DNA of 64,000 nt from Kordiimonas aquimaris (GTDB lineage: Bacteria; Pseudomonadota; Alphaproteobacteria; Sphingomonadales; Kordiimonadaceae): positions 64,501-128,500 of the forward strand of contig NZ_JAOBPO010000002.1 of assembly GCF_025574485.1 (NCBI RefSeq), read 5' to 3'. The notes beneath the pieces are model-generated. The model was given only the letters and a program-made list of their open reading frames with translations, ran no database searches and was not told the origin of the DNA. Positions within the stretch are counted from its first letter, which is position 1. Each line of letters starts with the position of its first letter. The position numbers were made by a program, and so were the translations under genes. Below, in pieces: positions 46,349 through 47,888 of the stretch.

Positions 46349-46594
46349 TTATCCCAATCCGCCAACAAAATGATGCTTTGGTTTGATAATGAGAGGGGTA
46401 ATTATAACCTTATGCTTCTTGCATGCAAGGCAAACCAGCATGTGTTCCGTTTCGTCCAGATACATACGTGCATGCGTATCGGTATGTTGCAGCAGATCAG
46501 CAGGTTCTGTGTACCAACCATAATTGCATGCTTTGCATTGCAGTCGAAACCGGTAACCTTCAGTATAGTCACCTAATTGTAAGGCATAGCTCAC
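46349..46594 (-). CDS. Small zinc-ribbon protein translationally coupled to the Y-family polymerase
   Basis: An 81-residue protein beginning at GTG; the GTGA overlaps the polymerase stop codon. It has two Cys-x-x-Cys knuckles, Cys-Lys-Ala-Cys near residue 20 and Cys-Leu-Ala-Cys near residue 56, with His-Thr-Asp-Thr-His between them. This should bind one zinc ion. The C-terminus is basic and hydrophobic (Ile-Ile-Lys-Pro-Lys-His-His). I know no name for it. The four-base overlap and shared SOS box strongly suggest that it acts with the polymerase, for example in DNA or protein contact; this is inference. Confidence 0.65.
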   Translation of the reverse strand: MSYALQLGDYTEGYRFRLQCKACNYGWYTEPADLLQHTDTHARMYLDETEHMLVCLACKKHKVIITPLIIKPKHHFVGGLG

Positions 46595-47838
46595 CAAAAA
46601 TCCTCCATTTCCGGTACGCGCCCAAACGCAATTTTGCCGCCAGCATAACCACCGGGCGGAGGTGTCCATGGCCCCATGCTGACAAGTGTTTTGGCATTGT
46701 TTTTATTAACGGCATCAATGGCCGCACAAACAGAAGACCATTTGCGTCTCATCGGATCATCTTGGTTAAACATATCAAACTGTTGCGCACTGACAGGGCG
46801 TATATGGTATAGTGCGACATTAAGGCGTTTTATCCGCGATGAAGGCGGCAGATCTGCTTTTGCTTTTTGCCAAAGGGTTGTTAATGCTTTAACTGCGGCT
46901 TGATCATCATTGGCGCCGCCAACATGTGTTTCGCCGAACCATCGGTCATCTTTCAGGCGCAACCATAGACCAAAGGTGTTAGCGAGGTATGCTTCACCGC
47001 GCAAACGGCGTGCTGCTTTTATAGTTAAAAGCCTTGCAGCATTAAACGCATTATCAAAGTCTCGCCATTCAGGTGGCAATACGCGGCCATGGCCAAACAT
47101 GGCGCGCTGTGTTTGTTCTGCCTGAACATCATAACCGCGCAGTGCATACCAAAACCGCTCGCCGGTTACATTGCCCCATAAGGCGCGTAATTGCTTTGGT
47201 TGTGTGCGCCACAATGCTTCAACGGTATTGATGTTTGCATCCATTAAACGATTTTTCATTCGGCCACCAATGCCGGGCAGGGCGCTAATGGGCAATGTGA
47301 GTAAGCGGTCAGGTAAATCTTCAGGCCTTAGTATAGTGAGGCCATCGGGTTTATTCATATCAGCTGCGATTTTGGCCAGCTGCAGGTTGGGCGCCATACC
47401 GATTGAGCAGGTTATGTAATCGCCGATGTTCTCTCTGATGCGGCGTTTTATTCGATCGGACAGGGCTTGTGGGTTAGCAATATCTTTTGGTTCCAGGCGG
47501 CAACACATTTCGTCAATGCTGCATATAACATCAATGGGTATTTCCTGTTCTACTAGCAAACATAATTTTCTATGTGCCCGTTCGTAAAGATCTGGTGACT
47601 GTGCAACCAATTCAATGTTTGGACAGGCGCGCCGTGCATCTACAACAGACATGCCGGTTTTAACGCCTTTGAGCTTGGCTCTATGATTTGCGGCTATCAC
47701 ACATGTGCCTGTGTTGGTGTTGAATGGTGTAACACCAATGGGCATGCCGCGCAGGCGCGGGCGTGCCTGTTCTTCGACACCGGCAAAAAAACCGTCAAAG
47801 TCCAGAAATAATCGTTCAATGGTGTCCGGTTTTCTCAT
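46591..47838 (-). CDS. SOS-type Y-family DNA polymerase, DinB-like
   Basis: A 415-residue translesion polymerase. The catalytic carboxylates are present: Asp-Phe-Asp-Gly-Phe-Phe near residue 13 and Ser-Ile-Asp-Glu near residue 107. A helix-hairpin-helix (Leu-Pro-Gly-Ile-Gly) is near residue 188, and a little-finger domain follows. The C-terminus has an unusual Gly-Lys-Ile-Ala-Phe-Gly-Arg-Val-Pro-Glu-Met-Glu-Asp-Phe-Trp tail in place of the common beta-clamp motif of DinB. ATG 47838 is preferred; a TTG at 47853 is in frame. A LexA box lies 35 bases upstream. No imuA or dnaE2 is adjacent. Confidence 0.85.
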   Translation of the reverse strand: MRKPDTIERLFLDFDGFFAGVEEQARPRLRGMPIGVTPFNTNTGTCVIAANHRAKLKGVKTGMSVVDARRACPNIELVAQSPDLYERAHRKLCLLVEQEIPIDVICSIDEMCCRLEPKDIANPQALSDRIKRRIRENIGDYITCSIGMAPNLQLAKIAADMNKPDGLTILRPEDLPDRLLTLPISALPGIGGRMKNRLMDANINTVEALWRTQPKQLRALWGNVTGERFWYALRGYDVQAEQTQRAMFGHGRVLPPEWRDFDNAFNAARLLTIKAARRLRGEAYLANTFGLWLRLKDDRWFGETHVGGANDDQAAVKALTTLWQKAKADLPPSSRIKRLNVALYHIRPVSAQQFDMFNQDDPMRRKWSSVCAAIDAVNKNNAKTLVSMGPWTPPPGGYAGGKIAFGRVPEMEDFW

Positions 47839-47873
47839 TACGTTGCGACTCAATTAATTACATCACGCAATGA

Positions 47874-47888
47874 GAACAAATAGTGAAC
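47874..47888 (-). promoter_or_regulatory. LexA box (GTTC-N7-GTTC) of the Y-family polymerase operon
   Basis: On the minus strand GTTC-ACTATTT-GTTC is an exact match to the alphaproteobacterial LexA operator (GTTC direct repeat, seven-base spacer). It ends 35 bases before the polymerase ATG, in promoter position. It predicts induction by DNA damage and supports the alphaproteobacterial origin of the window. Confidence 0.82.

Follow-up and report, generated by a model that had tools for sequence, protein, structure and literature searches.

The question raised by this locus is whether a small zinc-ribbon-like protein serves as a subunit of the DNA polymerase whose gene it overlaps. The two genes lie in the window, the whole 64,000-nt stretch of DNA that was analysed, which is part of a 3.8-Mb genome of 26 contigs from Kordiimonas aquimaris. 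The polymerase gene comes first, is preceded by a LexA box and shares four bases with the gene of the small protein. We favour, with moderate confidence, the reading that the pair encodes an SOS-induced two-subunit translesion polymerase with a dedicated zinc-ribbon accessory subunit, both the induction and the interaction being inferred from sequence. A dedicated subunit accounts best for the stop-start overlap, the single origin of the small gene, its strong retention, the shared transfer of the two genes and one fusion, taken together. The locus comprises:

47874-47888, minus strand: LexA box GTTC-N7-GTTC (GTTCACTATTTGTTC), found by pattern search
46591-47853, minus strand: Y-family DNA polymerase, 420 aa from TTG 47853, defined by the longest open reading frame (ORF) and Pfam
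46591-46594, minus strand: GTGA overlap of the polymerase TGA stop and the small-gene GTG start, at the ORF junction
46349-46594, minus strand: 81-aa zinc-ribbon-like protein (Cys20, Cys23, Cys55, Cys58), with no named family in profile scans of the ORF

Conservation of the gene pair

The overlap of the polymerase with an 81-residue gene had been noticed in an earlier, sequence-only reading, and it was confirmed: the junction reads TGGTGA, in which TGG is the last polymerase codon, TGA is its stop and the GTG start of the small gene lies inside. Relatives of the polymerase were collected at 80 named loci, the best of at least 549 polymerase matches, to which some genomes contribute two. The small gene lies beside or just downstream of the polymerase gene, or is fused to it, in 77 of the 80. 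The pairing was recognised by script in 67 loci and by eye, as an adjacent gene, in five more (L065, L070, L126, L128 and L086, the last cut by a contig end); the small gene starts 94-401 bases downstream in L098, L092, L096 and L105, and is fused in one locus. The named loci without it are L060, L084 and L114. The overlap itself, whose retention the sequence-only reading had proposed to count, is common: a GTG start is found at the same offset in 46 of the 66 named loci tallied, two of the 66 rows showing a non-start codon through misplaced coordinates. In L092, L096 and L105, which are metagenome-assembled genomes (MAGs) of Hyphomicrobiales type, an insert of about 250-400 bases, repetitive by eye, precedes the small gene.

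The small gene is present in 15 of 30 order loci, which are the best 30 of 57 matches in the order. Among 387 genomes of the class, a polymerase match was found in 30. Three of these matches exceed 50% identity and each has an adjoining small gene; the remaining 27 are 33-44% identical and have no strong small-gene match. The possibility that homologues of the polymerase mostly lack the small gene, which would have told against the sequence-only reading, is thus borne out among the distant relatives and contradicted in the clade, where 77 of 80 loci carry it. Away from the polymerase, no strong small-gene match was found in the 387 genomes, where mostly the best 14 candidates were scored; in seven of these genomes different Cys proteins matched the small-gene profile weakly (E 2e-6 to 7e-4). 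By the counts of this survey, the pair is widespread but sparse. Several order loci and two class loci apparently duplicate named loci, and the locus sets are therefore not independent.

A tree was built by a quick method from 113 polymerases and the genome's own DNA polymerase IV (Pol IV); it has long branches at the base. Its rows include 76 of the 80 named loci (of the other four, two are partial, one is frame-shifted and one is the fusion), 15 of the 30 order loci and 22 of the 29 other class loci, and one pair of rows is identical. The presence of the small gene marks one clade of 83 rows (support 98), 79 of which hold the gene, the members without it being L020, L060, L084 and L114. On this tree five changes of the small-gene label suffice, where shuffled labels need 30 on average. 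The ratio of nonsynonymous to synonymous substitution rates (dN/dS) of the small gene is 0.28 or lower in all of 12 hand-picked close pairs, some of which have very few changes, and 0.10 or lower in ten of them. MAGs labelled Bryobacterales, Nitrospinaceae and Micavibrio (L076, L079 and L081) nest among the alphaproteobacterial rows, through transfer or binning errors.

The LexA box

GTTC-N7-GTTC is the alphaproteobacterial LexA motif, as given in part of PMC3323433. The exact box that the sequence-only reading had placed 35 bases before the polymerase stands at that distance from ATG 47838. This codon (MRKP), at which many aligned relatives also start, is more likely to be the start than TTG 47853. 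The box is the sole exact match in the window. One exact match per 64 kb is the chance level (shuffle mean 1.35), and genome-wide the motif is rarer than its reversed control (80 sites against 143); the significance of the box comes from its position and its conservation upstream of relatives, and not from its count alone.

The box occurs within 150 bp upstream of the polymerase in 69 of the 77 named loci that have 400 bp of upstream sequence, three of the 80 having less. Six control patterns were found in 0-2 of the same 77 loci each, and the box pattern itself occurs 235-400 bp upstream in 3 of the 77. A chance origin of the box is rejected by the comparison with the controls, and with it the random distribution of sites that had been named as a possible refutation. 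The box was also found in 26 of the 30 order loci, in 27 of a second set of 36 class and order loci, 34 of which are without the small gene, and in all 23 plasmid and viral loci that have 150 bp of upstream sequence.

The polymerase

The window polymerase is assigned to the Y family by Pfam, with 114.8 bits for PF00817 (IMS; cut-off 23.2) and 21.4 bits for PF11799 (IMS_C; cut-off 20.7). The catalytic carboxylates D18, D114 and E115, described as complete in the sequence-only reading of a DinB-like enzyme, are kept in all 113 aligned rows (one row pair identical), of which 79 have the small gene and 34 lack it. The nearest named relative, from an uncultured Kordiimonas, is 81% identical, and in a PHROGs scan the polymerase matches one DNA polymerase family only. 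Identity with Pol IV was rejected, the best score among the NCBIfam Pol IV models listed being 150.8 against a cut-off of 399 and the score for PRK02406 being 141.6 bits against 256. UmuC was rejected at 63.9 bits against the NCBIfam cut-off of 431 and with a small neighbour that has no UmuD match, and ImuB was rejected since the carboxylates are intact and an imuA-imuB-dnaE2 operon sits elsewhere in the genome. Judged by these profiles, the polymerase would represent a divergent Y-family subfamily, neither Pol IV nor UmuC.

The sequence-only reading had described an unusual C-terminus in place of the clamp-binding motif and had suggested that the partner might supply the clamp contact. Both suggestions had to be given up, since the C-terminal region contains the following:

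46768-46782, minus strand: internal sliding-clamp motif QFDMF, residues 358-362 (numbered from the TTG start), found by alignment
46672-46743, minus strand: RecA-NT/DUF4113-like stretch KWSSVCAAIDAVNKNNAKTLVSMG, residues 371-394, found by profile alignment
46594-46641, minus strand: conserved C-terminal tail GGKIAFGRVPEMEDFW, found by alignment

All 79 rows that have the small gene keep the Q of the clamp motif, and 75 of them show the full pattern, of the QxxLF kind (shuffled expectation 3.5%), as do 12 of the 34 rows that lack the gene. Because the polymerase keeps this internal motif, its partner need not supply a clamp contact. Clamp binding by the polymerase is predicted from the motif, and RecA binding is a weaker prediction: in hhalign, run with no negative control, the columns of residues 371-391 pair weakly with the RecA N-terminus (E 0.021, probability 2.3). 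The tail has the consensus GGKI(A/S)(F/Y)xR(I/V)P...DFW, and its pattern is found in 76 of the 79 rows. Two surveys, PMC6511836 and PMC12926913, which are cited here and below for parts of their text, describe many Y-family groups in which a clamp motif precedes a RecA-NT stretch and a tail. The tail is not favoured as the docking site for the partner, because related tails are retained in the four clade members that lack the small gene and also in relatives outside the clade.

The small protein

The two Cys-x-x-Cys pairs of the sequence-only reading, Cys20/Cys23 and Cys55/Cys58, were found again, and in 58 small-protein sequences residues D9, C20, C23, C55, F76 and G79 are invariant and C58 and G78 reach 90% or more, with a mean column identity of 39%. 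The invariance of the Cys pair and of the F-x-[GA]-G residues is partly built in, because a Cys pair and a terminal F-x-[GA]-G were what the scripts used to recognise the small gene; D9 and the remaining conserved similarities are independent of these criteria. The protein is zinc-ribbon-like and is predicted to bind zinc.

In an AlphaFold2 model (mean predicted local distance difference test score, pLDDT, 86.3) the block means are at least 90 over residues 11-70 and fall to 54 and 51, a low confidence, over residues 71-81, which hold the FVGG motif:

46352-46381, minus strand: conserved C-terminal peptide PKHHFVGGLG of the small protein, of low model confidence, found from alignment and model

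This conserved end is probably flexible in view of the model, and a conserved flexible C-terminus would fit a docking peptide.

The matches to known families and folds are too weak to name a relative. No match of the window protein exceeds its cut-off in Pfam and NCBIfam scans, which also gave no UmuD match. YolD was not matched by the window protein in the Pfam scan (E up to 1), nor does it appear, at E up to 0.1, among the 25 Pfam families listed out of the 30 found for 43 relatives (no profile-profile comparison). The matches of these relatives are weak and scattered, the commonest occurring in 11 of the 43 and the best (E 4.7e-05) in two. The best E value in a sequence search of solved structures was 0.031. 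Foldseek found nothing for the model at E 0.001 or better, the best value being 0.79, and VIA-align gave weak fold matches, the best to HypA (Z 4.3, root-mean-square deviation 2.6, 52 aligned) and archaeal MCM (Z 3.4). PHROGs has no family for the two small proteins scanned. A role in defence was rejected, as PADLOC gave no match at E 0.01 among the three proteins scanned. Small Cys proteins in frames of 91-97 aa weakly match the zinc-protein profile at L164, L165, L166 and L167 (E 2e-6 to 6e-5); these genomes have no match to the window-type polymerase, and their Cys proteins are possibly the source family.

Plasmids and viral contigs

Relatives of the polymerase at E 1e-60 are carried by 26 plasmid records. 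The small gene is present in 7 of the 7 records opened, all among the eight best of the 26; in one of them it is unlisted in the incomplete gene table of PLSDB. For 19 of these 26 the RefSeq name of the polymerase is 'type VI secretion protein ImpB', which was perhaps carried over from impB/mucB/samB and which hides the polymerase from searches. At L175:6001-7547, on a conjugative plasmid of Aeromonas salmonicida, the pair is flanked by an IS91-like element and tet(Y) and retains a LexA box of the alphaproteobacterial type; it has crossed between classes, and the LexA of the host may not recognise its box.

The polymerase was also found on 19 viral contigs, and the small gene in all 18 that are not cut within the polymerase. 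On one contig the pair stands beside two D12-class methylases and a SRAP gene, and on another, by ORF reading, it precedes lysis-type ORFs. At L201:2450-4921, in a viral contig, a 60-aa Cys ORF with an EsV-1-7 match just under the cut-off and a SRAP gene come after the pair, possibly making up a larger SOS cassette on a prophage. Among the 80 named loci, a search by start motif found SRAP-like ORFs near the pair in 13. In L069, L072, L087, L094, L095, L117, L118, L123 and L125 this ORF lies upstream on the opposite strand and points away.

Proposed mechanism

According to the reading that we favour, DNA damage would remove LexA, and both genes would then be co-expressed through translational coupling. 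The polymerase would be catalytically competent; its internal QxDLF-type motif would bind the sliding clamp, and its RecA-NT-like stretch would probably bind RecA. The small gene would have a single origin, at the base of a clade that is mainly alphaproteobacterial. Its product would most likely bind the polymerase, or else RecA or the template DNA beside the polymerase, through the folded ribbon and the conserved C-terminal FVGG[LM][AP] peptide. It would tune when the polymerase is active, acting as UmuD does for UmuC and YqjX for YqjW, to which it is apparently unrelated. The relatives outside the clade and the four losses show that the polymerase can do without the small protein, for which a role in regulation or specificity is therefore more likely than one indispensable to catalysis.

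The sequence-only reading had taken the pair for a damage-tolerance module different from imuA-imuB-dnaE2. The conservation of pair and box, together with a distinct imuA-imuB-dnaE2 operon in the same genome, bears this out for a separate module of the SOS type, and the conservation also speaks for the zinc protein as a likely accessory factor.

Weighing the accessory-subunit reading and its alternatives

Several observations count against a dedicated subunit or weaken the evidence for it. The named loci are only the top 80 of the at least 549 matches. The small gene is missing in L060, L084, L114 and L020, which retain the polymerase with its tail, and it is not strictly needed, since these four clade members persist without it. 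The box is also found at 25 of the 34 polymerases outside the clade that have no small gene. Across 66 pairs the distances of the polymerase and of the small protein are correlated (Mantel r 0.85; 0 of 999 permutations), which agrees with a dedicated subunit and is also expected for any linked pair. In a single record, L117:3013-4494 (SZUA-142, a MAG labelled Gammaproteobacteria), polymerase and zinc protein form one continuous reading frame, the polymerase tail being replaced by the fusion; being one MAG, the fusion may reflect a sequencing or assembly deletion, and its model, with a linker pLDDT of about 32, is uninformative on the interface. To these are added the selection of the small proteins partly by their Cys pair and F-x-[GA]-G residues, a second Cys pair that is degenerate in L010 and L013, and the weakness of the RecA-NT match.

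The alternative that survives best, which we consider unlikely, is that the small zinc protein is co-induced and has a separate SOS task, for example on damaged or single-stranded DNA or with another repair protein, and does not bind the polymerase. The polymerases that persist without the small gene, in four clade members and outside the clade, are consistent with such a task, as are the weak matches to Cys proteins away from the polymerase in seven class genomes. The SRAP-like ORFs, another SOS component, point the same way, since with them nearby the operon may be a mixed SOS cassette. A free factor, however, would be expected to wander, whereas none of the 387 class genomes, with mostly the best 14 candidates scored, gave a strong match off the polymerase; the stop-start overlap is common in the clade, and one record fuses both proteins.

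It is less probable still that the small protein controls the expression or turnover of the polymerase, as an anti-mutator inhibitor, mRNA-binding regulator or degradation adaptor, and is no aid to synthesis. The overlap would couple the synthesis of both proteins, and the small size, the zinc-ribbon character and a conserved C-terminal peptide modelled with low confidence are features that an adaptor could have. On the other side, no known adaptor or inhibitor was matched among the families listed by Pfam, NCBIfam, PHROGs and PADLOC, and related polymerases outside the clade manage without the small protein. Hitch-hiking of the small ORF, linked to the polymerase by plasmid or phage transfer with no functional tie, would suit the occurrence of the pair on mobile elements and is nevertheless very improbable given the low dN/dS in all 12 close pairs, the 39% mean column identity with conserved residues beyond the search criteria, such as D9, and the mere four losses needed on the tree.

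Relation to known systems

Two-gene SOS polymerase modules are a known kind, represented by UmuDC, YqjW-YqjX and PolY with ImuB-C. UmuC-UmuD, the Pol V of E. coli, has a RecA-NT motif (PMC6511836, PMC12926913), of which the window polymerase has a candidate counterpart, and resembles the pair in its plasmid-borne relatives such as MucAB (in parts of PMC6495647 and PMC7092418), whereas the small protein studied here has no UmuD match, is zinc-ribbon-like and is encoded after the polymerase. In YqjW-YqjX and UvrX-YolD of B. subtilis an active Y-family polymerase and a small SOS-linked partner likewise share one operon, and these pairs are predicted to work with RecA (PMC6511836, PMC12926913). 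They differ from the present pair in that its partner is zinc-ribbon-like and its hosts are mainly Alphaproteobacteria and not Firmicutes. PolY with a standalone ImuB-C, as in lexA-imuB-C-polY of Geobacter, is a further case in which an active polymerase has a small, separate companion that is linked to the SOS response and about 80 residues long (PMC6511836 and part of PMC3765255). ImuB-C is a beta-barrel (PMC12926913), in contrast to the two Cys pairs found here; the two are set apart by description and not by profile comparison.

ImuA-ImuB-DnaE2 is, like the pair, an alphaproteobacterial mutagenesis system preceded by a LexA box, and it is present in the same genome. Its ImuB is catalytically dead and partners DnaE2 (PMC6511836, PMC12926913), whereas the window polymerase has intact carboxylates and no adjoining dnaE2. 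Pol IV (DinB) shares the Y-family fold and a clamp-binding motif, but the window polymerase scores below every listed NCBIfam Pol IV cut-off. An association of UmuC-like polymerases with SRAP is named in PMC12926913, with no zinc partner in the part cited; the SRAP-like ORFs near the pair and the SRAP genes in some of the mobile elements recall this group. In the main text of PMC12926913, a 2026 survey of bacterial polymerases, the word 'zinc' was found once, in a reference, in the part covered, and a term search did not find it in the part of PMC6511836 covered. No title or abstract opening returned by literature searches names a polymerase/zinc-ribbon pair, which is not a claim of its absence from print.

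We give about even chances to the wider proposal that the zinc-ribbon protein represents a class of dedicated translesion-polymerase subunits not described before, and that polymerase, zinc subunit, RecA and clamp make up a further mutasome type beside the 11 of the 2026 survey, spread in Alphaproteobacteria partly by plasmids and prophages.

Inducible mutagenesis in Alphaproteobacteria is ascribed mainly to imuA-imuB-dnaE2. Since the present pair occurs on plasmids and viral contigs, such mutagenesis may also travel on them. To our knowledge, few kinds of small partner proteins that switch error-prone polymerases on or off are known; if the favoured reading is true, the zinc-ribbon protein adds a kind with an apparently unrelated fold.

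Other SOS genes and neighbouring features

PF00817 finds four Y-family genes in the genome: Pol IV, the window polymerase, ImuB beside imuA, and one 452-residue frame. The separate Pol IV scores 468.6 bits against a cut-off of 256 and has its own exact LexA box. The lexA gene (175.4 bits, over its cut-off) has an exact box upstream, as has an imuA-like gene (46.2 bits, where the cut-off is 150), which is followed by imuB- and dnaE2-like ORFs, dnaE2 being assigned by ORF reading. Upstream of recA there are near-matches to the box only. No exact LexA box is listed within 18 kb of the fourth Y-family gene (L002, G000:C20:644111-644551). The longest ORF of a radical SAM gene of the PA0069 family, at L053:1918-3147, contains an exact LexA-type box 41 bases from its beginning; the box perhaps stands just before the true start, or may be there by chance.

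Upstream of the window polymerase lie hisI-like and folE-like ORFs, identified by reading the ORFs, and a weak hairpin is found between the hisI-like ORF and the LexA box.
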